A stretch of 40,929 nt of DNA from a virus, in IMG/VR virus record IMGVR_UViG_3300030107_002518, positions 1-40,929 of that record; one strand, written 5' to 3'. Within the stretch, counting starts at the first letter, position 1. Each line of letters opens with the position of its first letter. The notes under the pieces were generated by a model. It saw nothing but the letters and a program-made list of their open reading frames with translations, searched no databases and was not told where the DNA came from. Both the position numbers and the translations under genes were made by a program. Shown here in pieces: positions 10,521 through 36,059 of the stretch.

Positions 10521-11189
10521 TTACACTGTCCCACGCGACAAGTGTTGACCTATCACATCAGACTGTGGAGAAGACTTAGGGATCTGTCTCATCCACCAAT
10601 CAAATGTACCTGTATCGTCCATATTCTGCACAAATTCAGGTACATAAGCATATTTTCTCATCTGATTCGCTAACGCTAACGCCATTACACGGTCATCGTA
10701 AGGCGAACCATTCATAGAACCTCGTTCATTACGCACAAAAGTACGCAATTCTGCAATAGTAGATTCACAATGCAGAACTAATTCATCATTTTTAAGCGCT
10801 TTAGCCAGATCATCTATCATTAAAGGCTTAGATGTTCGCGTCGTTTTCCAGCCATACTCCTGAGAAATACGTTCACTGGACTGATTTAACGACCTTCTGC
10901 GATACAAATTGGGGTAACCTAACTGCCTTAAAACAGTAATTGTTGTTAATCCGTGGTTATTAGCCTCAACGCAACAAAGAGCATTACCGTACCACAAACC
11001 AAGATTGTAAACCTCAGTCGCCAGTTCATCTGGAGGTATACGGCCATGCCAAACAGCAACTTGTTCACCTTTTTTAACATCTACAACCTGCACACACGAA
11101 TAATCACCATGACCTAAACCTTCAGCAGTATCTACTCCTAAAACATATCCTGACCAGCGTTCGGGTCTTTCCCATACGGTCAAACTCAT
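10521..11189 (-). CDS. Large terminase, nuclease domain (separate gene)
   Basis: 222 residues that begin exactly where the nuclease half of a normal large terminase begins: TVWERPERWSGYVLGVDTAE, then GDYSCVQVVDV, CCVEANNHGLTT and SPYDDRVMALALA. The RNase-H-like acidic residues D20, E75 and D165/D166 are all present. This domain cuts concatemeric phage DNA during packaging. The start ATG overlaps the stop of the ATPase gene in ATGA, so the two halves are translationally coupled and probably assemble together. The split is unusual, since most phages encode both domains in one protein of about 450-600 residues. Confidence 0.88.
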   Translation of the reverse strand: MSLTVWERPERWSGYVLGVDTAEGLGHGDYSCVQVVDVKKGEQVAVWHGRIPPDELATEVYNLGLWYGNALCCVEANNHGLTTITVLRQLGYPNLYRRRSLNQSSERISQEYGWKTTRTSKPLMIDDLAKALKNDELVLHCESTIAELRTFVRNERGSMNGSPYDDRVMALALANQMRKYAYVPEFVQNMDDTGTFDWWMRQIPKSSPQSDVIGQHLSRGTV

Positions 11190-12073
11190 GTTCTGAACTC
11201 TAAGACGTTCGGTTGAAGTACGTGGAGATATCCCTCCACACCCTGTCGAATATACATACGCATACCATCAAGAACGTCAAGATCAAAGACAGGGTTCCCA
11301 GAACGAACAAATGCCTCTTCGGGATCGGTCGGGTACTCTTGAGCGAGTTGCCACGGGAGCATTGAGTCCTTTTTCCCTTCATACCACGAACTATCCCTAT
11401 CTTCTGAAGCCGACCAAGGAAAAAACATAGCATCGAACTTATTATTCCCCGTGGATGCACCATTCCAAAGATGATGGAAAAAATTACCTGAACCATTAGC
11501 AGTAGATAACCCAATAATGCGGCCACCGACATCGGCAACAGGCTCAATAGAAGCCCAAGCCTCTTCAGGGTTCGGCAAAAAAGCCCACTCATCGACGACA
11601 ACAAGAGTCGCGGATTCGCCGCGAGCAGGATCAGATGCCGAAGGCATCGACGTAATTTGTGAACCATTATCAAACCCCATTCTCTGCTGATGCTCTACAA
11701 CAGATTTAGGCCCACGTTCTACAAGCCATTCAGGAAGGTGTTTATAACCGTATTTTGTTTTCTTTAACAAAAGCACAGATTCACGCTCTGTACGCGACAA
11801 ATCAATAATATTTTGGTCGTCAGTGAAAAAAGCAAGCCAGAATTGATGAGCCGCCACTAAAGTAGTCCACCCTATTTGCCGAGCCTTTAACGTTAAAGAA
11901 TAACGGTTATTATCCCACCTTTTTAGCGCTTCAGCCTGAGCGTCACGTAACTTAAACAAAACTCGTCCATGAGCGGGATGAGCGATATGCCAATAGTTTT
12001 CTAGGAAGTACCTCTCATCACGCTGACATTTACGCCATTCCGCTTCTTGTCTAAGTTCCGATAATCGACTCAT
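11186..12073 (-). CDS. terL: Large terminase, ATPase domain (separate gene)
   Basis: 295 residues. It has the atypical Walker A of terminases (LKARQIGWTT, residues 62-71), Walker B LVVVDE (157-162) with catalytic Glu, and coupling motif STANG (190-194). An adenine-binding-like RYFLENYW is near the N-terminus. The protein stops after VLEFRT, just before the usual linker to the nuclease domain. The nuclease follows as its own gene in the -1 frame through ATGA. A -1 frameshift at the junction would fuse the two, but no classical slippery heptamer is seen. Its start overlaps the ferredoxin stop in ATGA. Confidence 0.9.
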   Translation of the reverse strand: MSRLSELRQEAEWRKCQRDERYFLENYWHIAHPAHGRVLFKLRDAQAEALKRWDNNRYSLTLKARQIGWTTLVAAHQFWLAFFTDDQNIIDLSRTERESVLLLKKTKYGYKHLPEWLVERGPKSVVEHQQRMGFDNGSQITSMPSASDPARGESATLVVVDEWAFLPNPEEAWASIEPVADVGGRIIGLSTANGSGNFFHHLWNGASTGNNKFDAMFFPWSASEDRDSSWYEGKKDSMLPWQLAQEYPTDPEEAFVRSGNPVFDLDVLDGMRMYIRQGVEGYLHVLQPNVLEFRT

Positions 12074-14903: not shown

Positions 14904-14923
14904 TGTCCCAATGGGACAGTATA
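14904..14923 (-). promoter_or_regulatory. Operator-like palindrome overlapping a -10-like box of the late arm
   Basis: TGTCCCA-A-TGGGACA (14904-14918) is a perfect 7 bp inverted repeat around one base. On the - strand it touches TATACT (14918-14923), a -10-like hexamer pointing at terS. No convincing -35 is seen, so the promoter part is uncertain. A regulator bound here would block late transcription. Confidence 0.45.
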
Positions 14924-14941
14924 TCTTATAAAGGGGTGGTA

Positions 14942-14988
14942 CTTAGTAAACGTTCTCCTAGCCTTCAGCGTCGGAGAACGGTACTAAG
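14942..14988. repeat. Long inverted repeat with CTTAGTA arms
   Basis: CTTAGTAAACGTTCTCC (14942-14958) pairs with GGAGAACGGTACTAAG (14973-14988) as 7 + 8 bp around a small internal loop, with a 14-base apical loop. The outer CTTAGTA element recurs before the replication operon at 20781. It could be a regulator site pair or a hairpin in the terS leader. Confidence 0.6.
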
Positions 14989-15062
14989 CACTGTCATTAT
15001 CGCATACAGTCCACCAAGAGATAAAATCCTAAACGCATCGTCCCTTCATATCTATACATACA

Positions 15063-15473: not shown

Positions 15474-15932
15474 ATGAGTGAAGTTCACCCATTCGACATA
15501 CAGGTTGCTGATTCCATCAGTAAACCGCCGAGGAAACTCGTGGTGCCTGATCACAGGGAGTCCATTGGACTCGTTGGTGACGGCGATGATAGGTACTCCC
15601 TTGGGGAGTTTGAGTTGCTTCAGATGCTTGGCTATGATGCAGGTGTAATCGTCTCTGACGATTTCTCTGAGAAGGCGGAGCATGTTATTCGCAACGTAGT
15701 TGCTACTAGGGCTTTTGGTCCTGATTGGTATGCTACGCATACTTTTGACAGAGATGCTTGGTTGTCTGGGGATGTGTTTGCCTACGGCATGGTTGATCCG
15801 TTGTCGTTTGTTGATCCTTCGGATGATGATGTGGATACTGGTACACATGTTGACACTGATATTCATCAGTGGTTGATGGGCGCTGACGTTGCTTCTGGCG
15901 AGTTCTTTGAACTCGATGAGGTGGCTGTTTAG
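15474..15932 (+). CDS. First early gene, unknown acidic protein
   Basis: 152 residues, acidic (many Asp), soluble, with no recognised family. Its start is MSEVHPFDIQ and its end is rich in Asp (VDPSDDDVDTGTHVDTDIHQ). The ATG follows AAAGGA with a 6-base spacer, just after the two leader hairpins. As the first gene of the early arm it may act on host takeover, which is inference. A 208-residue reading frame on the opposite strand is a shadow. Confidence 0.75.
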   Translation: MSEVHPFDIQVADSISKPPRKLVVPDHRESIGLVGDGDDRYSLGEFELLQMLGYDAGVIVSDDFSEKAEHVIRNVVATRAFGPDWYATHTFDRDAWLSGDVFAYGMVDPLSFVDPSDDDVDTGTHVDTDIHQWLMGADVASGEFFELDEVAV

Positions 15933-15942
15933 GTGTTTGGGG

Positions 15943-15987
15943 GTTGGTTCCTTCTCTTTGAACGAAGTGAAAAGAGAAGGGAACAAC
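15943..15987 (+). promoter_or_regulatory. Intercistronic hairpin, 17 bp stem
   Basis: GTTGGTTCCTTCTCTTT (15943-15959) pairs with AAAGAGAAGGGAACAAC (15971-15987), with one G-U pair and one G-A mismatch, around an 11-base loop. It lies between the stop of the first early gene and the hairpin-borne ribosome site of the second. Confidence 0.7.
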
Positions 15988-16001
15988 ACCCAACTTGGAA
16001 A

Positions 16002-16019
16002 TTGACTTTAGGAGGTCAA
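16002..16019 (+). promoter_or_regulatory. Ribosome site in a hairpin, TTGAC/GTCAA
   Basis: TTGAC (16002-16006) and GTCAA (16015-16019) enclose TTTAGGAG. The GGAGG ribosome site lies almost wholly in the loop, and the GTG start follows the stem without a gap. Two other early genes have the same arrangement with unrelated stems. Confidence 0.55.
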
Positions 16020-16526
16020 GTGAAAACATTGGAAATTACTGAAGCGCAGGCTTCAGCGTTGGTAGCGATTGCAGGGCGGATATCTGCAAGCGATGCTGAT
16101 GTTATCGTTGAAACACCCATATCCGAGCCTGTTGCTGAACCTACGGTTGAGTCTGATGAGTTCGTGTTAGGTGATTATGTGAGTGTAATCCCTGTTACGT
16201 CTGCATCTTCGATGCCAACGTTTGCGAGTGCTCAGGTTGTTGCTGAACCTGTGGTTCAGGAGGAATCGCCTGTAGTGTCTGCTAAGGCAGATGCTAAAGC
16301 GGAACGCAAGGCTGAGAATAAAGCGATTAATGCGCAGATTAATGCTCAACTTGCGAACGCTACGAAGGCGAGTGACAAGGGTGACCGTGGCGCTGTTGTT
16401 CAATACTTGAACAATGCTATGGCTCTTGTGCCTACTCGTACCAACAAGGACGGGTCACTTACGTGGCAAGGCACTGTTAATCGTATTGTTGCTAAGGCGG
16501 AGGCTTTGGAGGTCGCTAGCGCTTAG
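16020..16526 (+). CDS. Unknown early protein with Ala/Val-rich linker
   Basis: 168 residues from GTG at 16020, chosen because GGAGG lies 4 bases upstream; an upstream ATG at 15933 would run through the hairpin. The N-terminus KTLEITEAQASALVAIAGRI is helical, the middle is a Pro/Val/Glu linker, and the C-terminus is a charged helix (KADAKAERKAENKAINAQIN) followed by GTVNRIVAKAEALEV. No family recognised. Confidence 0.7.
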   Translation: MKTLEITEAQASALVAIAGRISASDADVIVETPISEPVAEPTVESDEFVLGDYVSVIPVTSASSMPTFASAQVVAEPVVQEESPVVSAKADAKAERKAENKAINAQINAQLANATKASDKGDRGAVVQYLNNAMALVPTRTNKDGSLTWQGTVNRIVAKAEALEVASA

Positions 16527-16538
16527 TTCTATACATGT

Positions 16539-16591
16539 GGGGTGGGCTACTGTGCGGATTTACCTACGGTAGCCTGCCCCTTTTTTGTTTT
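16539..16591 (+). terminator. Rho-independent terminator
   Basis: GGGGTGGGCTACTGT (16539-16553) pairs along its full 15 bases with ACGGTAGCCTGCCCC (16566-16580) through three G-U pairs, followed at once by TTTTTTGTTTTT. This is a classical strong terminator for the first two early genes. Confidence 0.85.
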
Positions 16592-16604
16592 TGGAAGTGT
16601 CGTG

Positions 16605-16775
16605 ATGAATGAGAAATTGCGCTGGTACACAATCGTGTACCTACATGAGTGGTGTTCAATTACCGTGAGCGTCAAAGCGAAAAGCGAAGACGATGCGCTA
16701 GTTGAAGCCAAAGAATTGTTAAGAGAAAACGGATACGGCAGGCTTATTGAAGCGCGTGTCGTGAATGGAGAGTAA
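16605..16775 (+). CDS. Small alpha/beta protein of unknown function
   Basis: 56 residues from ATG at 16605. A longer frame starting at 16542 would run through the terminator and is rejected. WYTIVYLHEWCSITVSVKAK then SEDDALVEAKELL gives a strand-strand-helix pattern in which a Ser-Glu-Asp-Asp-Ala turn starts the helix. The 77-residue gene at 19938 has the same plan (NAHSEEEAEELV). Its stop overlaps the next start in TAATG. Confidence 0.65.
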   Translation: MNEKLRWYTIVYLHEWCSITVSVKAKSEDDALVEAKELLRENGYGRLIEARVVNGE

Positions 16776-16930
16776 TGATGGATTTAATAGAGTTTTGTTA
16801 TGTGCTTGCGCTTGGGTCGGTTATTTTTCTCGCTGTTTGCGGGGCGATCTGGGTGTTTGAAGAGTCAGGACTCTTTGATGAGCCTGACGATGATTTAGAG
16901 CCTTACGATTGGTCTAAGGAGGAAGATTAA
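16775..16930 (+). CDS. Small single-pass membrane protein
   Basis: 51 residues (50 if the second of two tandem ATGs, at 16778, is used). One hydrophobic helix (FCYVLALGSVIFLAVCGAIW) is followed by an acidic tail ending DWSKEED. GGAG lies just upstream, and the first ATG overlaps the previous stop. Function unknown; a membrane-acting early protein is possible. Confidence 0.6.
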   Translation: MMDLIEFCYVLALGSVIFLAVCGAIWVFEESGLFDEPDDDLEPYDWSKEED

Positions 16931-16931
16931 T

Positions 16932-17177
16932 ATGGGTATGTCTAGGAAAGATTACGTGAGTGTTGCTGAGATTCTTAAGGGTCATAAGCAGTATGAGCAA
17001 GAGATTATTCGTTTGGGTGGTCCTGCGTCTACGCCTGATGAGATTTTTTATCGTTTGGCGTTTGATTTTGGGTCTATGTTCCGTGGCGATAATGAGAAAT
17101 TTGATTGGGATAAGTTCCGTGAGGCGTGCGATGTGCCGTTGAATTGGACGCATACGTTAGGAGTATTTGATGGATGA
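16932..17177 (+). CDS. Conserved small phage protein (SRKDYV family)
   Basis: 81 residues. MSRKDYVSVAEILK at the start and NEKFDWDKFREAC near the end form a recurring small phage and actinobacterial protein pattern (SRKDYV..A..L ... N..FD...F..AC). The function of that family is not known to me. AAGGAGG precedes the start, and an ATG two codons in is an alternative. The end overlaps the next gene by 8 bases. Confidence 0.7.
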   Translation: MGMSRKDYVSVAEILKGHKQYEQEIIRLGGPASTPDEIFYRLAFDFGSMFRGDNEKFDWDKFREACDVPLNWTHTLGVFDG

Positions 17178-17352
17178 GAAAGTATTAGATTTAACTGTAA
17201 AAGAGTTAATAGGTGAGTTGTTGAGCAACGATGACGTAGATACAGCGCTACGTAACATGGTTGGCGACTTCATGGGTGAGTTTATTGAGGGCATGCGGAT
17301 TTCAGTTACTGATTTCCGTGGCGAAACGTGGCACGTTGGTAGGGAGGCATAG
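17170..17352 (+). CDS. Small acidic early protein
   Basis: 60 residues from ATG at 17170 with AGGAG upstream, starting MDEKVLDLTVKELIGELL and ending TDFRGETWHVGREA. Helical N-terminus, no known family. It overlaps the previous gene and abuts the next, so it belongs to the same small-gene operon. Confidence 0.65.
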   Translation: MDEKVLDLTVKELIGELLSNDDVDTALRNMVGDFMGEFIEGMRISVTDFRGETWHVGREA

Positions 17353-17628
17353 ATGAGTGAGCATGTTTTTTATAACGCTACGTACACTGCGCATGGGTCT
17401 AAGATTAGACAGCATGCGTTGGGTTGTAGTTGGGTTGAGGTTCAGGCTTGGACTGATGATGACCGTCAAGCAGGCGGAAAGCGTTGGAGAATCCGTGCGG
17501 TTCATGATACTCCGAGCATGGCTGAGATTGGTGAGAAGATTGCGGAGTTAGGTGGCTCGTGGGGTAAGTTTGAGTGTGAGTGTGAGATTCTTGAGACTTC
17601 GTGTGATGTGTCTGGGGAGTTAATCTGA
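17353..17628 (+). CDS. Unknown early protein
   Basis: 91 residues with KRWRIRAVHDTPSMAEIGEK in the middle and a C-terminal FECECEILETSCDVSGE containing three cysteines. No family recognised. The coding strand here is strongly G/T-biased, like its neighbours. It starts right after the previous stop and ends in a TGATG overlap with the zinc-finger-like gene. Confidence 0.65.
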   Translation: MSEHVFYNATYTAHGSKIRQHALGCSWVEVQAWTDDDRQAGGKRWRIRAVHDTPSMAEIGEKIAELGGSWGKFECECEILETSCDVSGELI

Positions 17629-17768
17629 TGCCTAATAAGAATTTGAGAGGGAGTTACAACAAGACCCGTGTATGTGATTTGTGTGGCAAGAAGATAGGTG
17701 ATGCGCCTACAATCGAGCCTCATGGGCGTATCTTGCATGAGTCTTGTTGGAATAAAACTTTTGATTAA
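17628..17768 (+). CDS. 46-residue zinc-ribbon-like protein
   Basis: The sequence contains VCDLCGKKI and, about 20 residues later, HESCW: a C-x2-C ... H-x2-C set typical of a treble-clef or LIM-like zinc site. The N-terminus is basic (MPNKNLRGSYNKTR), suggesting nucleic-acid binding. ATG overlaps the previous stop (TGATG). It is last in its small operon and directly followed by a hairpin. Confidence 0.65.
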   Translation: MPNKNLRGSYNKTRVCDLCGKKIGDAPTIEPHGRILHESCWNKTFD

Positions 17769-17828
17769 CCCCACCATTTCTTTTTTTAATTGAATGAAAT
17801 GAAATTAAAAAAAGGAATGGTTGGGTGG
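17769..17828 (+). terminator. Long A/T-rich hairpin
   Basis: CCACCATTTCTTTTTTTAAT (from 17771) pairs with ATTAAAAAAAGGAATGG...GGGTGG (ending 17828) around an 11-base loop, with a 4-base bulge and one mismatch. It begins at the stop codon of the zinc-ribbon-like gene. It may terminate transcription in either direction. Confidence 0.65.
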
Positions 17829-17905
17829 TAAGAGGAAGCCCATTAAATGATATTCCTGTTTGCTCAAGCACGTTGTGCTTCAGGGTATATAAACACAGCC
17901 AAACT
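17829..17905 (+). promoter_or_regulatory. Short gap with AAGCAC-GTT-GTGCTT palindrome and TATATAA
   Basis: AAGCAC (17866-17871) and GTGCTT (17875-17880) form a perfect 6 bp inverted repeat, followed six bases later by TATATAA (17886-17892), a possible -10. With a terminator-like hairpin on each side, a promoter here would start a new early unit. Confidence 0.3.
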
Positions 17906-17970
17906 GGGGTCGTGTGAGTTTTTGTGGTCTAACATATTCCACTCCTTTCGCTCGCACGGCCCCTTTTAAT
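17906..17970 (+). terminator. Branched hairpin with U-run
   Basis: GGGGTCGTGTGAG (17906-17918) pairs with CTCGCACGGCCCC (17951-17963) along 13 bases with two G-U pairs. An inner GTGG/CCAC stem (17924-17927 and 17939-17942) sits in the loop. TTTT follows the stem. Confidence 0.7.
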
Positions 17971-17980
17971 CTATATAAAC

Positions 17981-17997
17981 AAGCATTGGAGGTGCTT
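17981..17997 (+). promoter_or_regulatory. Ribosome site in a hairpin, AAGC/GCTT
   Basis: AAGC-ATTGGAGGT-GCTT with the ATG at 17998 directly behind the stem. The loop ATTGGAGGT is identical to that at 19924, while the stem differs in a compensating way (GTGC/GCAC there). Confidence 0.6.
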
Positions 17998-18507
17998 ATG
18001 AGTGATGAAAAAATTTCACTAGATTTTGACTTTCCGCAAGTGGAGAGTCAAATAGAGGTAGACCGTGAGAGTCTTGTAGACCAACTGTGGGACGAGCGTG
18101 GTTACAAGGGCTTAGAGAGTAAAGTCAAGGACTGTATAGACGAGAAATTGCCTGAGGAAATCCAAAGTTACGTGGACCATAACTATGATTTCGGCGACTT
18201 TGTGCTGAATGATGAGTTAGGTAATGAGTTTGACAACCTTGTGACTGATTATTTAGACGATTTGTTGCGTTTAGAGCCAGAACAATTATGCGATGTAGGT
18301 ACGAAGTTCAGGAAAGCAGTCATGAATGTTGTTACAAGCATGGAGATTGAGCGCAAAAAAGTGCAGGAGTTGTCTGAGGAATCGTCTGACCTTACGCTTA
18401 GCGCTCGTGATATTACGTTATGTCAGGCAGTCGAACGTGAGGTTCTCAACATAAGACAGTCTTTGCGTGATGTAGTTAAACTTATTGGGTCGGAGGTCCA
18501 AATATGA
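17998..18507 (+). CDS. Unknown acidic helical early protein
   Basis: 169 residues from the ATG at 17998 behind the hairpin-borne ribosome site; a longer frame from 17914 would cross the terminator. Very acidic N-terminal half (DFDFPQVESQIEVDRESLVD), then a long helical C-terminus (VVTSMEIERKKVQELSEESS, EVLNIRQSLRDVVKLI) that may form a coiled coil. No family recognised. The stop overlaps the DUF932 gene start in ATGA, suggesting linked roles. Confidence 0.7.
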   Translation: MSDEKISLDFDFPQVESQIEVDRESLVDQLWDERGYKGLESKVKDCIDEKLPEEIQSYVDHNYDFGDFVLNDELGNEFDNLVTDYLDDLLRLEPEQLCDVGTKFRKAVMNVVTSMEIERKKVQELSEESSDLTLSARDITLCQAVEREVLNIRQSLRDVVKLIGSEVQI

Positions 18508-19475
18508 GAGAAACAGTAGATAGTGCGCGTGGGGAGCAGAATTTCCTTTTGCGTGATCGTTCAACAAGTAGCACGGAGGTGCCTGAAGTCGCTAGGTCGG
18601 TTGATGCGCATTTCCCTGTGAAGTACATGCCGTCTGGTTTTATGGATGGGGGCGAGTTTTTCGTTCCTGTGTATGAGTCAGGGGAGTATGTGGGTCAACC
18701 TAAAGACAGGTATGTTGTTCGCGCTGACGAACACCCTCTCTTTGGTGATGAGGTGCTTGGCACTCACTCAGGTAAGTATCCTGAGCGTGCTGGCTATGTT
18801 CACGTGTATGAGACTTTAGAGGCTTTGTTCCCTAGGAAATGTTCTAACGTGACGATGTTTGGCAATGGCGAGCGTGTTGTTGTTGAGCAGATACTTGATA
18901 AGCCGTTTGATTTAGGTAACGGTGATGAGATACAGCCGTTTATTTATACGCGAATGTCGTTGAATGGTGTGTGGAAAACGGAGATAATCCCTGTTCAGAA
19001 GCGTATTTCATGTGAAAATATGCTTGGGAGCGGGAAGGGAATTGTTTCCGTGCGTGCCACTAAGAACCATGATGACATTCTGACAATGAAGTCACGTGTT
19101 TTAGAGGTGTCTATGCGACAGGCTGAAACAGTGAGGAAGATGGCTCGCATATTGTCTGATCAGGAGTTCTCTGATTGGCAGTTCCAAGCGTTAGTGAAGA
19201 CGATTGTACCTAAGTTGCCTTCTGATGCGCCTGAGCGTGCTGTAGTTAATCGCAATAAAAAGATTGCTGTCATGAATAATGCGTGGCGGGATGAAACTGA
19301 GAAGTGGGGCACGATGAATAAGTGGCTCGCTTACAATGCCGTTCAGGGTGCTGAACAGCATCAGATAAATGCGAATTACAAGATAGGGGAAACTGTAAAC
19401 TTTGAGAAATCTTTAGCGAAGTCGCTTGATGGTAAAACTCCGTTGGCGAAAAAGGCGCTAGAGTATTTATCATAG
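18504..19475 (+). CDS. DUF932 family protein
   Basis: 323 residues. ISCENMLGSGKGIVSVRATK lies in the middle, with a long helical region (MRQAETVRKMARILSDQEFS) after it and KWLAYNAVQGAEQH near the end, corresponding to the (C)N(L/M) and AYNAVTEY..H signatures of DUF932 phage/plasmid proteins. The family is widespread on plasmids and phages; its biochemical role is unknown to me, though it often sits near recombination genes. GGAGG precedes the ATG, and translation is coupled to the preceding gene. Confidence 0.7.
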   Translation: MRETVDSARGEQNFLLRDRSTSSTEVPEVARSVDAHFPVKYMPSGFMDGGEFFVPVYESGEYVGQPKDRYVVRADEHPLFGDEVLGTHSGKYPERAGYVHVYETLEALFPRKCSNVTMFGNGERVVVEQILDKPFDLGNGDEIQPFIYTRMSLNGVWKTEIIPVQKRISCENMLGSGKGIVSVRATKNHDDILTMKSRVLEVSMRQAETVRKMARILSDQEFSDWQFQALVKTIVPKLPSDAPERAVVNRNKKIAVMNNAWRDETEKWGTMNKWLAYNAVQGAEQHQINANYKIGETVNFEKSLAKSLDGKTPLAKKALEYLS

Positions 19476-19479
19476 TCTT

Positions 19480-19537
19480 GCGTGGCCCCTGCGCAGGACC
19501 TCCACCCATCCCTACATGGGCTTCGTGGGGGTCATGC
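19480..19537 (+). promoter_or_regulatory. Multibranched intercistronic hairpin
   Basis: GCGTGGCCCC (19480-19489) pairs with GGGGTCATGC (19528-19537) through two G-U pairs. Inside lie the palindrome CCTGCGCAGG (19488-19497) and a CCCAT/ATGGG hairpin (19505-19520), which compete or branch. It begins just after the DUF932 stop. Confidence 0.6.
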
Positions 19538-19563
19538 AACATCTAGGCATAAGGAGGAAAAAA

Positions 19564-19857
19564 ATGCCAGAAGTAATGAAACAATCCGACCTCCCGTTCG
19601 GGTTTAGAAAGCAACGGGATAGCGTATACAAGGAACTCGGAGAGAGCATTATGGCTCTTGAAGATGGCGAAATGCTTAAGTGTGTAGGAGGGATTGATTT
19701 TCCATTGGACGAGCAGAGAGTAGGCACTGGTCAAAGTACTCACCCTATTCACGCTTTTCGTGCCACCATATATGCTTATATGCGTAGAGTGCATAACATA
19801 AATGTTAAAACATCTGCCGATTTCGGGAACAACTTCTTGTATGTAGCGAAGAAATAA
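19564..19857 (+). CDS. Unknown small early protein
   Basis: 97 residues from ATG at 19564, with AAGGAGG upstream; a longer frame at 19516 begins inside the hairpin and is rejected. It contains THPIHAFRATIYAYMRRVHN, then VKTSADFGNNFLYVAKK at the end. This resembles DNA-binding or regulatory small proteins with one helix-strand unit, but I recognise no family. It is a single gene bounded by a hairpin on each side. Confidence 0.7.
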   Translation: MPEVMKQSDLPFGFRKQRDSVYKELGESIMALEDGEMLKCVGGIDFPLDEQRVGTGQSTHPIHAFRATIYAYMRRVHNINVKTSADFGNNFLYVAKK

Positions 19858-19864
19858 ACATATT

Positions 19865-19920
19865 CGAGTGGGGCAAAGGTAAAAGGTTTATCCCCCCTCT
19901 AAACGCCTTTGTCCCGCTCG
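19865..19920 (+). terminator. Intercistronic hairpin, 15 bp stem
   Basis: CGAGTGGGGCAAAGG (19865-19879) pairs fully with CCTTTGTCCCGCTCG (19906-19920) through two G-U pairs. GTTTA/TAAAC (19886-19904) forms an inner stem. Its last base is the first base of the next ribosome-site hairpin, so the two helices would stack. Confidence 0.75.
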
Positions 19921-19936
19921 TGCATTGGAGGTGCAC
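19920..19936 (+). promoter_or_regulatory. Ribosome site in a hairpin, GTGC/GCAC
   Basis: GTGC-ATTGGAGGT-GCAC, one base before the ATG at 19938. It has the same 9-base loop as at 17985 with a different but still complementary stem. Confidence 0.6.
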
Positions 19937-19937
19937 G

Positions 19938-20171
19938 ATGGGAAATAATTTAGAAAACAGGCAAAGGCATTTCAAGGAGGAAGATGTGGGACCTGACAAT
20001 TACAGTGTCACGTTTGAAACTCAAGCAGTGATGCGCGTGTGGGTAAACGCACACAGCGAAGAAGAAGCCGAAGAACTTGTGCGCAGTGTAAGCACAGATG
20101 TTGATTGGAATGATGTCACTATTGTAGATATGGGCATGCATGAAATAGATGTACAGAGAGTGGAGAGTTGA
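19938..20171 (+). CDS. Small alpha/beta protein of unknown function
   Basis: 77 residues from ATG at 19938. A second possible start, GTG at 19986, has AAGGAGG just upstream and would give a 61-residue form. NYSVTFETQAVMRVWVNAHS then EEEAEELVRSV repeats the strand-strand-helix plan of the 56-residue gene at 16605, so the two may be distant paralogues. Function unknown. Confidence 0.65.
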   Translation: MGNNLENRQRHFKEEDVGPDNYSVTFETQAVMRVWVNAHSEEEAEELVRSVSTDVDWNDVTIVDMGMHEIDVQRVES

Positions 20172-20706: not shown

Positions 20707-20737
20707 CGAGAGAGGTTGTCACAGCAGTAGACTAGTA

Positions 20738-20796
20738 TTAGTACCTAGTACCACCACCTCTCTGAAAGAGGTGGTGGGTACTTAGTACCTAGGAGG
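20738..20796 (+). promoter_or_regulatory. Hairpin with TTAGTACC repeats before the replication operon
   Basis: CCACCACCTCT (20751-20761) pairs perfectly with AGAGGTGGTGG (20767-20777) around CTGAA. CTAGTAC and GTACTTAG extend the stem outside a bulge. TTAGTACC occurs at 20738-20745 and 20782-20789, related to the CTTAGTA arms at 14942. The ribosome site AGGAGG (20791-20796) follows directly. Confidence 0.65.
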
Positions 20797-20801
20797 TAAG
20801 T

Positions 20802-27593: not shown

Positions 27594-30500
27594 CTACGAA
27601 TCTCGATATGCCGCCCTGCGCAAATTGTTCATTTCGGCTATCTCTTCCTGCCTTTCCCAATACTTAGACTCTATTACACGTTGTTGCTCTTCACGTGTAT
27701 TAGTTCTAAGACCAATACCAAACGCAAAACTTAACCAAGTAGACAAAGTTCTTTGCTGGTATCTCTCTTCATCAGGAAATAACCTACGCAGATCAGTAAA
27801 CGTTGGCAACAACTGAGCCAAGGCATGCAACTGATAATCTTTCATATACCACACACCATCTTGCTTTGTAGCCTGAGATATCAGATCTAAAGCAGGCATC
27901 AAAAGAGGAATATTTGTGTAAGCAGAAGGTACCTGCTGATATCTGCCTTGAAAATTGTATCCCTTCCAAATATTTTTCCTCATGTACCATTCAGTAGGTG
28001 CTTTAAGAAGAGGAGTTGTTTGCGTAAGAATAGTTCCCAACGCAGTTGTTACTCTTTCTTCAAAACTCATGTTTGGATCAAACGCAAACGTAGGGTCAAT
28101 CATCTCAAACGGAGCCTTAAACGGCAAATCAGGAAGAATAAACATGTTTTCCCCCTTGTATTTGAATGGTAACTGCACAGCCTGCTGTCTGCGGAAATAA
28201 TCTGGCACGATAGGAACTTCTTCCTGCCCCATCTCCATATTTCTCTTGAATTTCATATACGCAGACATCTTTGCAGGATTCTTGCCTATCTGCTCAATCA
28301 TCAAAGGCATAGCATGTTTAGTCCACGTATAGAACGGAATAATTCTTTTAACAAACGTGCGTTCAAAGTCTGAAAGATCATCGTAATCGAAATGCCAAGT
28401 CGTAATCGCATCAAATGCTTCGTCGGCAGTCCCGCCTTTTTTAATTACATCAAACCCAAGACTGCCACGCACGTAAGTTTCAACACCCATACCCACATTT
28501 CGAGACAACTGCAAAGGCGCATTCCTTGAATTAAACGGATTCACAGTGCTCCAAGCACGACGAATCCGCCCCCCACGCCTAGGAGCACCAGTAAATTCCA
28601 CACCTATCTGACCAGCAGACGTTCCAATAATGTTGTCATCAAGCATCCCACGCACAATGTCTTTATTTTCTTGAGAGGTCTTTCTCCATATCCCTCTCGC
28701 TTTCATTGCCACTTGGATGTTCCGTGCGGTTTGAGTCGCCCCTCTTTCAACTGCTAAATCATGTTGCACCTGCCAATATGCACGTTGGAATTGACGGTAA
28801 CTTGCTAAATCGACACCATGCAAAAAGTTCATAAAAACAGAAGAGAATAAGTTGCGCATATGAAACCCAGGTTTTGCAATCATGTAACCTTTAAGCAGGT
28901 TATGGACCTTATCGTAGTGCTTAACAAACGTCGCCATTCCGCCTCTTGCTCGGAACCTAGTCACAGCAGTCATAGCATCAACCATCGCTTCAGGACCTTG
29001 AGCATTAACACCAAACGCCTTCATGCCAGAGTAGAAAACATCTTCGAGAATTTCTTCTCTGTCTTGAAAACTTTTTAGCGGGAACCAGAAGTCGTCATCA
29101 GGTTGAGCGCTTACATTACGTGCGGGAAGAGGAGAAGCGCCCTCTAAAGTGTCCAAACCTCTGATAGCCCTAATTAAATCATCGCCTAAACCTTGTGTCG
29201 CACCTGTATTGATGTCACCTAACACTGCGCTTACCTCATCAGGGGAAGCGCCAGAAAGAGCAAGACGTAAAGCCCTGTCGTTCGCGTCGATATTGGACTG
29301 GTGAATAATAGCAATAGCAGTTTCTAACTGCTCGTACATGCCTCTTAAGTCCGATGCTTCTATTTCTTCCGCTCCTTCAAGCAAATCGTCTAAAACGTTT
29401 TGAGCGGCTTGAACATCCTCTAAACGGCTCTGAACTTCGTTAAGAACATTTTCGGCCTCTTCTAATTTCTGTTTAGGCAAAGACGCATTTTCTAGGAGCG
29501 TTCGCGCCTCACTAAGGTCTTTTGCCCCTTTGGCAGAAAGACCAGAAGCGCCCAAAGAAGAAAGTAACTGTTGCTTCTGATCGTTCAACTGTGACAACGC
29601 ATCAGGGATATCCCAAAATTCAGTAAACTTTTTATCCCATGCAGACCTATCTGCCGCAGACATACCAGAAAAACGTGCATCAAGTAAATCAAGATACTCA
29701 TCTATCGCTAAATCCAAATCAAGTATTTGTCCTTTGCCGCGATCAAAATCCATCAACATGTTCAACTGATCAGGTTGACTCATTTTAGGTTTAAGCGCAT
29801 AAGGGTTAGTCAAAATAAAAGTTGACTGTATAAGATCTCTGGATTCATTTCCTGCTATAACTGCTTTAGTATGTTCGCTTTGGTTTATCCAAATGGCCGC
29901 ATTGTAGCCATCCATTGTCAAAGAATTTCTATAAGTATTCAAAAGTCTTGAAGCCATCAACTGCTCAGATAAAGGTTCTTCTAATTTCTTCAAGACAGAT
30001 GATGCAACTCGCACATTAGGTGCTTCTCGCCCTGATGCAACAAACACATCGTTAATTATCGCAGACACAGCCTCTGGAGTTAGAACTGTGGCTCTAACGC
30101 CAGAAGTAAGCATTCCGCCTCTAGCGATCGGGGAATCAGAACCAAACCTGTAAGGAAGTGGTTGAGCCATTCCTCCTCGCTTAGAGATCTCCGCAGAAAT
30201 TCTTGATACAAGATTAATGTCGGTAGAAGCGCCTGAGTTCTTCAACAGACTTTCTAAAATCAGTTCTATTTCTACATCAGAATCGTAAGTTATCTTCCCA
30301 AGGTTCATAATAACATTTTCGCCTTCAACCCGATTAGAAGGACCAGTAAACGCTTTCAATAAAGGAGACAGTTCCCATGTTGCTCTTTGAGCAAAATCGT
30401 TTAATTGAGCGGCAGGCCCACTATCAGAACTTAATCGTGCAACTTTTCCAGCAACTAATTGTTTAATTTGAACATCAGGCAACGACCTTAAAGATTTCAA

Positions 30501-33500
30501 TCCTTCTGGCAAATTTGAAGTCACTCCTCGTTCGCCTAAAATTGAAGCCAAAATAGTCATTTTGTCTCTCCAAGCAAGCGATTGCCCGTTAGGAGAAAGA
30601 GGGAAATAACCTAAAGTATCAAAAGTTTCAATAGCGTTAATTAATTGAAGAGCGTTAGTAACATTCTCTGTCCCTTTTTCACTAAGCCTACCTGTAGCAA
30701 AAGCATTAAAATAGTCTTTTAACAAATCAGGATCAGAGTTGTAAACTCTTTCCGCAACATCCCAAATCTGGTCGGTACTGCCGCCAGCGGTGCGACCAGT
30801 ATATTGTGAATCAATACCAGACCTTTCCCTTACAGCCCTGTTTACATCAGCAATTATGCCCCTAAGAAACTCATTAACTTCTTCTGTTTCCTCTATGCTG
30901 TCAAAATCTAAACGACCAGTTCGTATGAGTTCCTCTACCCATTCCTGCCCTCTGTAAACTGGCATGTCATAAACTTTTACATTTCTAGCACCTTCAGGCA
31001 ACGACAATAAAATGTTATAGTCGTAATTCATGTTAGACGTGAAACCCTGTATACGGTTCGCCAAGTTCGCATTCATACCCAAATTAGCGTCAAGCCATTC
31101 CAAATTGCTAGCGCCAACAACCTGACTCTGCACAATAGGACCTGCAAACTCTGACCTATGTATCAACTCTAAAATTTCTCCCGCTAACTCAGGAGAAGGA
31201 TCTCCTTCAGGAGTAAATTCGCCATTGCGGACAATTCTTTCAGCAACATCTTGAGCAGTGCCTATAGTAACCAACTCTTCAATAAGCAAATCTGGGCCTT
31301 CACGAAATTCTTTACTAAAATAATTAGACAAAGTTCTTGTACGATCATCAAGCCAACGAGCAAACATCTCCACATCTGCTTCATCTAATTCAGGCACCTG
31401 TCGGCGAACCCAATTTTTCCAACCACCATTCCTTAAACGCAAATCAAGTAGTTGATCTAACTGATTACTCATTTCACCAGTAAACCCAGCAGGACCTTGC
31501 TCCAAACCTTGCTCCAAAAGCAAATTGTCCTGAACATGCCCGATTGAATTTTCGTAAGAATCGTCAAAGAACGTTTTAGGTCCTAAAAGTTCCTGAACCT
31601 CTTCGTAAGCGAAATTAGGATCATTAGTTTTAGGCGCACCCCTTCCTCCATAAAAGAAAGAAGCACCATTATCTAAACGAACCAAATCACCAGTTACGGA
31701 GTTAATACCAAAATTAACTCCGTCTGGGCCTCCATAGCCCATAACGTCATAGTTGCCTAACAAAACATCTGCCATAAACATGTCTTGTCGCAACTCACGC
31801 AAAGGAACATGAATAGCAGAATCCACTAACGAAGCGTCAGTAATTCTTACAATGTCATAACCTAATATTTCACCATTACTGTTAGTTATTGTCCTTCTGT
31901 ACTGTGTAGAAACATCATAAGGTTCAGCAGGTAAAACAGTTTTTTCGTCTGAAACTTTCCACCAACCATCTAAATCTCCATAACCTTCCACAAGCCCGTA
32001 AGAGGAAGAAGGAGCACCGTTCCCATTTGACAATTCGCTATATAAACGATCAGCAAGAACTTCAGAACTGACACGATGCTCGGCAGAATCCATAGCATTT
32101 GTCGGCACAGCAGACTGAACCCCTTGCTCACCTGTATATCTCTTCAAATATTTTACTTTGCCATTATGCTCAACTTTAATAACAAGATTTGAAGAACGAA
32201 TTATCTCTACATCATCTACATCTTCCCGAATGCCAAGGTCGTCTAAAATGTTGGTGTACCTTAAATCTTCATGATCGCTAAGCCCAACAATTCTTCCATT
32301 TTCAAAAATTTCAACAACAGAAATAGGATCAATAGGAGCAGGCAGGGTACTGACATGCAACTGAGGATTAGTTAACTCCCGAAGCCTCATCCAATAAGCC
32401 AAATCCTCTATAGTTACATTATCAAAAACCGCACCCTCATTTGAATGCGCTGTCGTGACAGGACTACTAGTCAAAATAGGATTATTCAACTCTTGCGCTA
32501 ATACAGATTTCTGTCTTAAAGTGGTGAAAGCAGATTCGATTAGAGAATCCAAATCTGCTCCGTCGGCGATACCGAAACGAACATTCAAGCCACCAAACGA
32601 ATCATAAAACAAATGAACCGCATCAGCAAACTCTTCATCTTCCCGCATCAAATCGTTCCAAGCAGTTTCTCTGTCAAAAAAAGTTTTAGCAGAACGATCC
32701 GAAGGAGCGATTCTGCCCAGTCTCTCTTCCAACTTTCGCGCAACAGTTTGTTTCGCTTCAGAAATATTCTCTTTAGTAGGAGATTTACCGCCTACAAATC
32801 CTTCAAGTTTAAGATCTGAAAAGAGTTCTTCAGCCTGCCTGACTATCCCATAACTAGTTTCTATCTGCTGGTTAAGTAACTTTACGGTATTAGAAACATT
32901 ATTCGCAGGATTAGAAATCCCGACTTCCCCTTTGAAACCTTGCATAATCTCGTCTTGCAAAGCAAGCCAAGGGCCTTGCGGAGAACTATCAATATCTGCA
33001 ACCAACTCAGTTAATTGTTGCATCCAATACTGATTTTGCACAATATCGTCTTCGCTTATACCCTCAACAGTTTCTCGCAAATATTTAGCGAAATCGGGTT
33101 CAATCGTGGGGTCCCATTTTGAAGAAAGAGTAACAAACCGATCAAAAGTTTCTTGCCCGCCAAACAAACTAAATAATTTATTTTCCAGAACAATCAACTG
33201 AGCAGAAGTTTGCTTCAAAGTTCTTAAATGCAATTTAAGTAAGGGTTGACTACCGCTAAGTAATTTTTCTTTCTGATCAACAAGTCTGCGCATTTCTTCT
33301 GCTACAGCCAAGAATCTTTCAGAACCAGTTGCATCAGGTCCGAAAGCAACTATTTTTTCCTCGATTTCTGCAAGAGCCACACGCATTGCTTCCGCTATTT
33401 CTTCTTCTTCAAGAGCCTTTTCAGCGGCAGAATTATAGTTTCCAAGAGCGCGGTCATACTCACCCTGAGCCTGATCCGCTAGTTTTTTTGCATTTCTAAC

Positions 33501-36059
33501 GTGAGACTGTTGTTCCGCGAGTTCTTCCCCTAGTTGCCTGACAGCATCATCTAAAATAGATTCGTAATTAGCCGCTTGAGTGACAAGATTATGCTCTGCC
33601 TTTCGAATGCTAGAAACAGCATTAGCAACGTCACCACTAGGTATATGAACAAAAGAAGTAGTTACATCAACAAAAATTCCTTCTTTTATCAAAAGAGATT
33701 CTGCGTAAACTTCCCCGACCCGCTTAGAAATAGAATTGATATAAACTTCAATCACTTTGTCAAAGTCATCATCAAACAAAGCATAATTAATTCCCTGATT
33801 CTCCATAATGTCAGCGATCTGTTCTTCAATCGCTTTACCATTAGCATCAGAAGGGTCAAGAAGTTCTACCCCTAAAAAAGTATTTTGTTTACCAGACGCT
33901 TCAACAAGTTCAACAGCCTCCTGACGACTTAAGTCAGCATTTTTAGCCATTTCAGCATCTACTGCCTTATCAAAATCGCTTTTACCAACGTAAGAACGTT
34001 GTTGCTCAAAACCAGAAGGCTTATATTTTCCTCTTGTACCTATTTGCCTGCCTGATATAAGGCCAACATTTTTCTTTTGTAAATACCTTTGCGCCTGCTC
34101 GCTTAGAACACGAGGCAAGTAATTATCAACTCTTCCTAAAAAATTCCTATGAGCAATACTGTTAGCAGTAGTCCTCAAATCTTCCATAAATTTTTGAGCC
34201 TGATCGTATGCGGTTACAGTTTCTACTGTTCCGTCAGGATCAATTACATCATAAGTGATTGACTTTAATTTTGTAATGGCTTCTTCGTTACCTCTTAACG
34301 CAGAAGCCAGATCTTTAGCGTCAACACCAGATATAACGGTTTGCCTTCTAAATTCTTTCAACAAACGAGACATTTCATAACCTGCCCGTCTAGCCGCCGC
34401 ATCGCCACGAGCAGAAACATGCAGAACAGATTTATAAGCATGAACGCCTACAGCGTCCCCCTCTCTGATCGCTTGACGTAATAATTGGCGAACTTCAGTT
34501 TTTCGACCACCTCTGCGCATCCAACCAATCAAACCGCCTTCAGCGGTTCCTTTCACAGGAGTTGCGGCTTCACCAGCGGCGTGAGCCAAAACTCTTGCCA
34601 AAGGACCGTTCTTAACATACTTCCTTCCAAAGAAAATACTACGAGTCGCCTGCGGAACAGCACGCAACCAAGTTCCTACAACAGGATTCTTTACAGAACC
34701 AAGAACCTTAAACCCAATAGGTTCTTGTAAATTATGTTTGAAAATCTTTTGCCCAAGATTCCCTGAAAAAGGAAGTTTTATACCCAAAGCCAAATGGGCA
34801 TTTTGCGCTTCCAACTCAGAGAACCAAACTTTACTTCTTATCTCAGGTTTAGGCTTACCAAAAAAATTAGGTTTAGGTTTCCCTTTGCGTAATACCTGCC
34901 CAGCAACTTTCAAATTGCTATCTAATCCAAGTTTAGCGATCCAACCAGCGGCTTCTCTTATCTGATCATCAGTTATTCCTGTAACGCCTCGTTGATCTAT
35001 ACCTATCTGAAGTAAAGAGCGAACACCCCCTGTGGCTTCTTCACCAAGATCAAGAATAATATCATCAGCAAAATTACGGAGTTTAGATTCCCCCAATAAT
35101 TCATTTACATTAATTTTAACTGCACCATCATCCATGTGAGTAACAATATTGCTTGATGTCCCACCCGCAATATTATCAGTAACTCGTTTAATTGTTGATT
35201 CTGGAATTGCCGCTAAACCATCAGTTAATTTACGTACAGCCTCATCACCAAGTTGAGGTGCTTGTTTCCTGACAGCATCAGCGGCCTCTCTAACACCCCA
35301 CCTAGTTGCTTGCGCCGCAATCGTCCTGCCGCCTCCAGCGGCCAACCTAGAAGCCAAAATACCAGCCTTACCTATAAGAAAAGTCATATAAGTTAAAGGG
35401 TCGAAAAGAACGTCACCTGCGAACCCGACTGTACGCGCCCACTTAAGATTTTTATCTTCTTGCCAAATGTCAGCCTCATGAAGCAACTCACCAAATGTAT
35501 AAACGCCGCTACCAGAAAAAATATTTAACTTCCCAAGAGCATCTCTGATTCCGAATCCTTTTTCAAAATCAACTTGAGGCTTATCCATAAAAGGACTTAC
35601 TTTATGAACATTTTCTAAATAAAGCCTTGTGGCAGTTGTGGCAACAGTCAAAGGGTATTGAATTAATTTGAACAAAAACCCAGTCGGGCCTTCAGTGGCC
35701 ACTTTACCAATATTAACTAACGCTTTTTTCCAAACAGGAAGGTTATCGTAAGCCCTGTCTTGGTACACCTCGCTCATCCATTTAGTAAAAGTAGGATCTG
35801 GCGCAACAGGCATATCGTCACGAAAGCCCCAAGGTTGACTCCTTTCAAAATAAGGCTTATCTCTAGAAAAGGCTGTATCCGTTCCATAAACTTCAGGATC
35901 TAAATACTTGATACCTAAAGATTCAAGCATCGTATTTTTAGGGGTGGCGTATTTAGGAAAAGAAGGAGGAGTTGGTGTACGCGCCTGTGCTTGTCTTCTA
36001 GTTAAGGTTTCAGAAGCAAACCTTCTGAAATCTTCTTCAAGATTATTTGGTTTTACCAT
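27594..36059 (-). CDS. Giant internal virion protein (2821 residues) with kinase-like signature
   Basis: One uninterrupted 8.5 kb gene, a fifth of the genome. The N-terminal ~650 residues are helical (ADIWQEDKNLKWARTVGF; FLGRVDNYLPRVLSEQAQRY). Coiled coils fill ~850-1000 and ~2100-2250. Residues ~1290-1480 carry a HipA/PI-kinase-like pattern: YLKRY (K1306), E1327/E1333, ADVLLGNYDVMG (D1438), N1449 and RLDNG (D1463). The C-terminal part (~2400-2821) has AKPGFHMRNLFSSVFMNFL and DLSDFERTFVKRIIPFYTWT, seen in large polyvalent phage proteins. By size and place it is probably ejected into the host with the DNA, as T7 gp16 or N4 virion polymerase are; no polymerase motif is seen. There is no clear ribosome site, so translation is probably coupled to the preceding gene. 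Confidence 0.8.
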   Translation of the reverse strand: MVKPNNLEEDFRRFASETLTRRQAQARTPTPPSFPKYATPKNTMLESLGIKYLDPEVYGTDTAFSRDKPYFERSQPWGFRDDMPVAPDPTFTKWMSEVYQDRAYDNLPVWKKALVNIGKVATEGPTGFLFKLIQYPLTVATTATRLYLENVHKVSPFMDKPQVDFEKGFGIRDALGKLNIFSGSGVYTFGELLHEADIWQEDKNLKWARTVGFAGDVLFDPLTYMTFLIGKAGILASRLAAGGGRTIAAQATRWGVREAADAVRKQAPQLGDEAVRKLTDGLAAIPESTIKRVTDNIAGGTSSNIVTHMDDGAVKINVNELLGESKLRNFADDIILDLGEEATGGVRSLLQIGIDQRGVTGITDDQIREAAGWIAKLGLDSNLKVAGQVLRKGKPKPNFFGKPKPEIRSKVWFSELEAQNAHLALGIKLPFSGNLGQKIFKHNLQEPIGFKVLGSVKNPVVGTWLRAVPQATRSIFFGRKYVKNGPLARVLAHAAGEAATPVKGTAEGGLIGWMRRGGRKTEVRQLLRQAIREGDAVGVHAYKSVLHVSARGDAAARRAGYEMSRLLKEFRRQTVISGVDAKDLASALRGNEEAITKLKSITYDVIDPDGTVETVTAYDQAQKFMEDLRTTANSIAHRNFLGRVDNYLPRVLSEQAQRYLQKKNVGLISGRQIGTRGKYKPSGFEQQRSYVGKSDFDKAVDAEMAKNADLSRQEAVELVEASGKQNTFLGVELLDPSDANGKAIEEQIADIMENQGINYALFDDDFDKVIEVYINSISKRVGEVYAESLLIKEGIFVDVTTSFVHIPSGDVANAVSSIRKAEHNLVTQAANYESILDDAVRQLGEELAEQQSHVRNAKKLADQAQGEYDRALGNYNSAAEKALEEEEIAEAMRVALAEIEEKIVAFGPDATGSERFLAVAEEMRRLVDQKEKLLSGSQPLLKLHLRTLKQTSAQLIVLENKLFSLFGGQETFDRFVTLSSKWDPTIEPDFAKYLRETVEGISEDDIVQNQYWMQQLTELVADIDSSPQGPWLALQDEIMQGFKGEVGISNPANNVSNTVKLLNQQIETSYGIVRQAEELFSDLKLEGFVGGKSPTKENISEAKQTVARKLEERLGRIAPSDRSAKTFFDRETAWNDLMREDEEFADAVHLFYDSFGGLNVRFGIADGADLDSLIESAFTTLRQKSVLAQELNNPILTSSPVTTAHSNEGAVFDNVTIEDLAYWMRLRELTNPQLHVSTLPAPIDPISVVEIFENGRIVGLSDHEDLRYTNILDDLGIREDVDDVEIIRSSNLVIKVEHNGKVKYLKRYTGEQGVQSAVPTNAMDSAEHRVSSEVLADRLYSELSNGNGAPSSSYGLVEGYGDLDGWWKVSDEKTVLPAEPYDVSTQYRRTITNSNGEILGYDIVRITDASLVDSAIHVPLRELRQDMFMADVLLGNYDVMGYGGPDGVNFGINSVTGDLVRLDNGASFFYGGRGAPKTNDPNFAYEEVQELLGPKTFFDDSYENSIGHVQDNLLLEQGLEQGPAGFTGEMSNQLDQLLDLRLRNGGWKNWVRRQVPELDEADVEMFARWLDDRTRTLSNYFSKEFREGPDLLIEELVTIGTAQDVAERIVRNGEFTPEGDPSPELAGEILELIHRSEFAGPIVQSQVVGASNLEWLDANLGMNANLANRIQGFTSNMNYDYNILLSLPEGARNVKVYDMPVYRGQEWVEELIRTGRLDFDSIEETEEVNEFLRGIIADVNRAVRERSGIDSQYTGRTAGGSTDQIWDVAERVYNSDPDLLKDYFNAFATGRLSEKGTENVTNALQLINAIETFDTLGYFPLSPNGQSLAWRDKMTILASILGERGVTSNLPEGLKSLRSLPDVQIKQLVAGKVARLSSDSGPAAQLNDFAQRATWELSPLLKAFTGPSNRVEGENVIMNLGKITYDSDVEIELILESLLKNSGASTDINLVSRISAEISKRGGMAQPLPYRFGSDSPIARGGMLTSGVRATVLTPEAVSAIINDVFVASGREAPNVRVASSVLKKLEEPLSEQLMASRLLNTYRNSLTMDGYNAAIWINQSEHTKAVIAGNESRDLIQSTFILTNPYALKPKMSQPDQLNMLMDFDRGKGQILDLDLAIDEYLDLLDARFSGMSAADRSAWDKKFTEFWDIPDALSQLNDQKQQLLSSLGASGLSAKGAKDLSEARTLLENASLPKQKLEEAENVLNEVQSRLEDVQAAQNVLDDLLEGAEEIEASDLRGMYEQLETAIAIIHQSNIDANDRALRLALSGASPDEVSAVLGDINTGATQGLGDDLIRAIRGLDTLEGASPLPARNVSAQPDDDFWFPLKSFQDREEILEDVFYSGMKAFGVNAQGPEAMVDAMTAVTRFRARGGMATFVKHYDKVHNLLKGYMIAKPGFHMRNLFSSVFMNFLHGVDLASYRQFQRAYWQVQHDLAVERGATQTARNIQVAMKARGIWRKTSQENKDIVRGMLDDNIIGTSAGQIGVEFTGAPRRGGRIRRAWSTVNPFNSRNAPLQLSRNVGMGVETYVRGSLGFDVIKKGGTADEAFDAITTWHFDYDDLSDFERTFVKRIIPFYTWTKHAMPLMIEQIGKNPAKMSAYMKFKRNMEMGQEEVPIVPDYFRRQQAVQLPFKYKGENMFILPDLPFKAPFEMIDPTFAFDPNMSFEERVTTALGTILTQTTPLLKAPTEWYMRKNIWKGYNFQGRYQQVPSAYTNIPLLMPALDLISQATKQDGVWYMKDYQLHALAQLLPTFTDLRRLFPDEERYQQRTLSTWLSFAFGIGLRTNTREEQQRVIESKYWERQEEIAEMNNLRRAAYRDS

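Follow-up and report, generated by a model that had tools for sequence, protein, structure and literature searches.

Selection is generally believed to keep ribosome-binding sites free of structure. Why, then, would a phage place a hairpin directly on the ribosome-binding sites of its early genes? The question is raised by a 40,929-bp IMG/VR virus record, IMGVR_UViG_3300030107_002518 (the whole stretch is called the window here), in which early genes are preceded by a small hairpin that carries the Shine-Dalgarno (SD) sequence in its loop and ends at or close to the start codon (Table 1). Three such hairpins had been described from the letters of the window alone, and all three were found at the positions given for them. 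Their stems had been drawn too short in two cases: that of hairpin 2 is one pair longer, and that of hairpin 3 is also longer (6 bp) and takes in the "g" before ATG 19938 that had been left outside it. A fourth hairpin, in front of the gene with a DUF932 domain, had been missed; it is retained in two relatives, one of which (L009) has TTGGA-TCGGAGG-TCCAA.

The start hairpin is strongly supported as a selected RNA shape that belongs to the early block alone and has the SD at its centre. The evidence comes from the phage family around the window, which is uncultured and mostly marine; 80 related contigs were gathered via the exonuclease gene, and 19 records were laid out more fully. The late genes lie on one strand; on the opposite strand, upstream of the exonuclease, the small genes of the early block follow one another. 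A hairpin was counted if a stem of at least 5 bp held GGA in its loop. Counts were compared with an arm-swap null, in which each gene kept its SD core and 3′ flank and received the 5′ flank of another gene, so that base composition and SD content were preserved. When flanks were swapped across the set, 146 of 584 non-redundant SD-bearing starts had a hairpin against 37.7 expected. By class, the early-block starts reached 45% against 7.7% (z 18.7); the null was 6% both for replication genes, which had 14%, and for late genes, which had 9%. Swapping within genomes gave 92 hairpins at 198 early starts (18 related records; GGAG in the loop) against 26.8 +/- 4.3, with a maximum of 45 in 300 trials, whereas all non-early genes of the same records remained at chance level (16 hairpins, 15.5 expected). 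Opposite-strand, late genes had only 5 in 141 (Fisher p 1e-20), and the structural-gene clusters conserved on the late strand had almost none. The proposal that the hairpin is an element repeated at early genes was thus borne out, the early block lying far above the null and other genes at chance.

If only Watson-Crick pairs are allowed, the excess peaks at GGA and has fallen to chance 4 nt to either side; since loop length varies, a test in a single fixed register is weak in power. In six control records (MW202803, T7, lambda, SU10, HTVC010P and T4) the figure was 9.1% against 8.2% expected, and in 80 HTVC010P-like marine contigs (83 pelagiphage starts) 7.2% against 9.0%. An Rfam search returned no family, its sub-threshold matches being chance hits of a microRNA-like kind. 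A 4-bp stem around the SD does arise by chance at about 20-25% of starts, and GGAGGT next to AC.. might produce stems through SD composition alone. The probability that the hairpins are such an artefact is nevertheless close to nil: the within-genome swap refutes it at the level of the family, the nulls retain both composition and core, and late genes, control phages and pelagiphages all stand at the null.

The stems differ in sequence and remain complementary, as had been proposed, and this covariation holds across genes, above the arm-swap null, and among orthologues. Within genomes it is extensive: the 92 early hairpins have 52 distinct 5-nt arms, and in one record (G018) hairpins at 11 of 13 early SD starts use 10 different arms. 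The DUF932 gene is present in 17 laid-out genomes with a hairpin at 11 of the 17 starts, and about ten different complementary stems occur at this one gene (TTGGA/TCCAA, GCGCA/TGCGC, TACGTAT/GTACGTA, ATAAGCGC/GTGCTTAT, ACACA/TGTGT, ATGCA/TGCGT, AAATACAC/GTGTGTTT, CATGTAC/GTACATG, TGACC/GGTCA and TGTACT/GGTACA). In the family of the 16020 gene (c23), 9 of 12 SD starts have a hairpin, with stems that include TTGAC/GTCAA, ATGAC/GTCAT, CGACT/GGTCG and TTGC/GCAA; starts in relatives that correspond to hairpin 1 read TTGAC-TTGGAG-GTCAA (L090), and ATGAC-TTGGAG-GTCAT and TTGC-TTGGAG-GCAA (L009), and the L090 orthologue of hairpin 2 has an identical stem. Homologous starts that keep the SD and lack a complementary stem, named beforehand as the observation that would speak against the element, gave a mixed picture: some clades have no stem (DUF932 in L013, L018-L021, L082, L085 and L079; the 16020 gene in L013 and L020), and most keep a different complementary one. 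The genomes that lack a hairpin at one of these genes still have hairpins at others, so the element is replaceable rather than obligatory.

The same variability bears on whether the inverted repeats work as DNA, in the form of operators, promoters or recombination sites, instead of RNA. TTGAC at 16002 resembles a -35 box, and Cluster EG and O phages carry constant inverted repeats upstream of genes (PMC7302621, PMC4351075). In the family, however, the position is locked to the SD and the start codon, and the arms vary from gene to gene within one genome, so that no protein could read them as DNA sequence. A function as DNA is therefore very improbable.

The family hairpins have stems of 5-8 bp, whose sequence differs at nearly every gene, with a median energy of -4.1 kcal/mol (10th-90th percentile about -1.8 to -7 kcal/mol). 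Loops range from 4 to 9 nt, and of 54 strict cases 37 have one of 5-7 nt; most frequent is the register in which a C-G pair closes a hexaloop NNGGAG (13 cases, 0.7 expected). The 3′ arm usually stops 0-5 nt before the start codon. Nearly all hairpin starts have an SD of GGAGG or longer (87/90) and ATG as start codon (84/90), and GGA is followed by G (96%), then G (75%), then T (57%). The gap to the upstream gene has a median of 89.5 nt, compared with 13 nt at other early starts (p 0.003; a trend, 27% being adjacent), so most hairpin starts are uncoupled from the preceding gene. In predicted folds, GGAG is unpaired with a value of 0.73 where the start has a hairpin; the remaining early starts reach 0.49, and late starts and control phages 0.40. 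When the 5′ flank is scrambled, the value for hairpin starts falls to 0.51. Of the two roles originally offered for the loop, displaying or hiding GGAGG, this predicted exposure favours display and makes hiding less likely.

The exposure also bears on whether the stem is a simple brake or thermometer whose stability sets the translation rate of each early gene by lowering initiation. The stem lies within the expected ribosome footprint, and the span of stem energies would suit graded rates. Yet thermometers bury the SD in the stem, and here it is not paired there, GGAG lying in the loop (GGA by design of the test); predicted accessibility rises instead of falling; and a weaker SD would achieve the same effect more simply, while the strongest SDs are found at hairpin starts. 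Such a brake appears improbable.

A function of the hairpin in translation is likely, and we infer both that it raises or controls initiation and the manner in which it does so. The reading preferred here, to which we give about an even chance, is that the small hairpin presents and insulates the SD of early genes in a shape-coded form and thereby controls early translation. An apical loop of about 5-7 nt would leave GGAG(G) free of pairing while the 3′ arm fills the spacer to the start codon; the conserved property is the shape with the SD core, not the stem sequence. The stem would form while the leader is synthesised and shield the strong SD from the large intercistronic hairpins, whose arms are C-rich. 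The loop would be where the 30S subunit finds the SD, and during ribosome accommodation the stem, which is weak (median about -4 kcal/mol), would melt; each early gene would thereby become a cassette with separate initiation. Stems this weak would probably be opened by ribosomes, judging from what is generally known of initiation on structured mRNA.

Several observations weigh against presentation of the SD. Full SD:anti-SD pairing may not fit within a loop of 5-7 nt; the stem would then have to open, which could equally slow initiation. The hairpin is missing from about half of the early starts and has been lost in some orthologues. Part of the raised accessibility follows from the definition of a loop as unpaired. 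Stem energies and probabilities were computed with an 80-nt upstream context, which cuts through the hairpin at 17906-17963; when the context is widened to 180 nt, competing pairings are still preferred in the minimum-energy folds of the leaders of 16020 and 17998. The 19938 leader folds as drawn in the longer context, and the predicted stem probability of hairpin 3 in context is 0.98. The energy of hairpin 1 is -2.6 kcal/mol as drawn and -4.5 for the best local fold.

The main rival sees in the hairpin a target that a trans-acting factor recognises: a phage or host RNA-binding repressor or activator, or an endoribonuclease, would read GGAG loops and shut off or time early mRNAs in the manner of CsrA or T4 RegB. 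CsrA ligands are short stem-loops exposing GGA in the apical loop, and a loop NNGGAN closed by C-G resembles them (PMC7366521). CsrA/RsmA hairpins also often lie over the SD and have variable stems. Restriction to early genes would suit a programmed shut-off, and conditional use is suggested by a stem being retained alongside a strong GGAGG. The likeness to CsrA targets does not extend to the A at -2 of GGA: ANGGA is found at 21/90 hairpin and 24/95 non-hairpin starts, and is thus not enriched. T4 RegB sites resemble the family in having GGAG in early SDs, and an unpaired GGA with a constrained fourth G favours cleavage; T4 sites are generally protected from RegB by structure, and their 3′ flank is A-rich (PMC3014915). 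The A-rich context GGAGRAYARAA is absent from the family, where the 3′ side reads GGTN... Loop length, moreover, varies (4 to 9 nt), and neither a CsrA gene (control positive) nor a RegB gene (detected in T4 as positive control) was found in 38 phage records. A trans-acting reader is considered less likely than not, though more probable than a brake.

The original prediction knew of no named element like the hairpin and so missed the Start Associated Sequences (SAS) known from actinobacteriophages of Clusters K and EF. In Cluster K mycobacteriophages, GGGATAGGAGCCC is present in 11-19 copies, each immediately ahead of the start codon of a non-structural gene (Pope et al., 2011, PMC3203893). 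The 13-bp element occurs mainly at genes with large upstream gaps (>50 bp), mostly with ATG, its function was left unexplained, and about half of the copies have an upstream inverted repeat, the ESAS (PMC3203893), in which a later paper placed promoters (PMC11373665). The sequence can be read as GGG-ATAGGAG-CCC, a 3-bp stem whose loop contains an SD; the authors noted the outer symmetry only. Like the family hairpin, SAS lies over the ribosome-binding site within a few nucleotides of the start and belongs to non-structural genes, mostly ATG genes with large upstream gaps. A large intercistronic hairpin had also been claimed before each of the three hairpins first described, and stems of 12 bp or more do precede 57% of the early hairpin starts against 12% of starts in control phages, although stem length alone was scored here and ESAS is a conserved 17-bp sequence. 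In contrast to the longer and variable family stems, SAS is nearly constant, and the phages that carry it share no detectable gene homology with the window family beyond distant hints.

In nine genomes of eight Cluster K subclusters, 135 ATAGGAG sites were counted, 99 of them canonical; the canonical stem has 3 bp (about -1.9 kcal/mol), and a fourth pair is complementary in just 10%. Among 27 non-canonical sites before a start, 4 have complementary flanks of at least 3 bp against 0.42 expected by a rough 1/64 rule, GTAC-ATAGGAG-GTAC and TCGGCC-ATAGGAG-GGCCGA being two of the four. Stem-swapped loops occur in Pixie (GTAC-ATAGGAG-GTAC, L212:7059-7073; TCGG-ATAGGAG-CCGA, L212:5519) and Aminay (TCGGCC-ATAGGAG-GGCCGA, L216:34528-34546), and several other deviating copies break the stem. 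Mycobacterium phage Aminay also has a 12-bp stem with the loop ATAGGAG (L216:12140-12170) just upstream of a second, canonical SAS. In Cluster EF Microbacterium phages SAS is GGGAAAGGACCCC (PMC7302621), readable as GGG-AAAGGA(C)-CCC, a GGG/CCC stem that holds the SD in its loop. AnnaSerena gene 39, said to lack SAS, has CCTG-AAAGGAC-CAGG before its ATG (L221:25341-25355), the SAS loop on a swapped complementary stem. Unlike the family hairpins, the EF stem is constant in most copies and the loop differs. By sequence definition the window elements are not SAS. That the two are the same kind of device is a lead of moderate strength, because the cases are few, the canonical stem has only 3 bp and several copies break it. 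More tentatively, and with somewhat less than even probability, SD-presenting hairpins may form a general class of shape-coded start elements in several unrelated phage groups that mark the early regulon and have as their reader either the ribosome or a single dedicated factor; mycobacteriophage SAS, with its constant sequence, would be a form with a frozen stem.

In the window itself, the sharing of G19920 between hairpin 3 and the large hairpin before it, where coaxial stacking had been suggested as possible, was confirmed; with the 6-bp stem two bases are shared. Look-alikes at 17152 (stem of just 4 bp) and 20780 (12-base loop) were rejected and may be chance; orthologues of the 20802 gene have a hairpin in 0 of 14. 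Before the exonuclease gene, a perfect hairpin stands between TACTTAGTACC / GTACTAAGTAC boxes (window 20736-20801 and 14920-14990); these boxes recur upstream of the exonuclease in many relatives, possibly as an operator or processing site.

Table 1. Start hairpins, large hairpins and early genes in the window.
Feature	Position	Strand	Remarks
Large intercistronic hairpin before SD hairpin 1	15930..15997	+	-30.2 kcal/mol
SD hairpin 1	16002..16019	+	TTGAC-TTTAGGAG-GTCAA, abuts GTG 16020
Early gene, family c23	16020..16526	+	no known domain
Large perfect hairpin upstream of the 17906..17963 hairpin	17768..17826	+	-27.2 kcal/mol
Large hairpin with short T-run (terminator-like) before SD hairpin 2	17906..17963	+	-30.8 kcal/mol
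SD hairpin 2	17981..17997	+	AAGCA-TTGGAGG-TGCTT, abuts ATG 17998
Early gene	17998..18507	+	no known domain
SD hairpin 4	18485..18501	+	TTGG[G]-tcggagg-[T]CCAA, 2 nt before ATG 18504; within 3′ end of preceding gene
Early gene with DUF932 (PF06067)	18504..19475	+	
Large intercistronic hairpin running into SD hairpin 3	19866..19919	+	-25.8 kcal/mol; shares G19920, or C19919 + G19920
SD hairpin 3	19919..19937	+	CGTGCA-TTGGAGG-TGCACG, abuts ATG 19938
Early gene, phrog_14649	19938..20171	+	

The window encodes an SU10-type portal, a TOTE-type primase, a DnaB-like helicase, a RecB-like exonuclease and RusA. It has no close named phage: the nearest is the uncultured podovirus MW202803 (~27% protein identity), and the window DNA had no match among 50,697 phage records. 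No relative of the 17998 protein was found in viral contigs by pattern search. Helicase and exonuclease alignments were also used to look for a host among the genomes of 84,980 bacterial and archaeal species, and gave nothing. The sole host clue obtained is a small early protein that matches Actinomycetia phage DSL-LC01 at 40%, and this weak match hints at an actinobacterial host; the starts of DSL-LC01 itself have a hairpin in 2 of 17, too few starts for judgement. The terminase large subunit (10521-12073, -) is split into two adjacent open reading frames, an ATPase part (11186-12073, Terminase_6N) and a nuclease part (10521-11189). A single reading frame of 2821 aa (27594-36059, -) is conserved in 16 related genomes with a median of 2824 aa. 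Among the relatives, an ARAGORN tmRNA call with the unusual tag AWDYNPMWVQCSA (L130:16667-16990, -) is probably false, and a tRNA-like stretch (L036:6130-6215) has a large hairpin on one side and the DUF932 promoter region on the other.

A literature search for early regulons with the SD in a loop found no description, most subscription papers being outside its reach. The combination of variable stems with a constant loop supplies direct evidence of structure that constant repeats cannot give. The question of SAS function, open since 2011, gains a testable answer: positions 1 and 10-13 of SAS, which 16S pairing does not explain, would be the stem. For reporter work, the family hairpins are a ready set of natural compensatory variants. 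For the family itself, the finding means that these phages build a hairpin on the ribosome-binding site at nearly half of their early genes and not elsewhere, in contrast to the view of ribosome-binding sites as unstructured.

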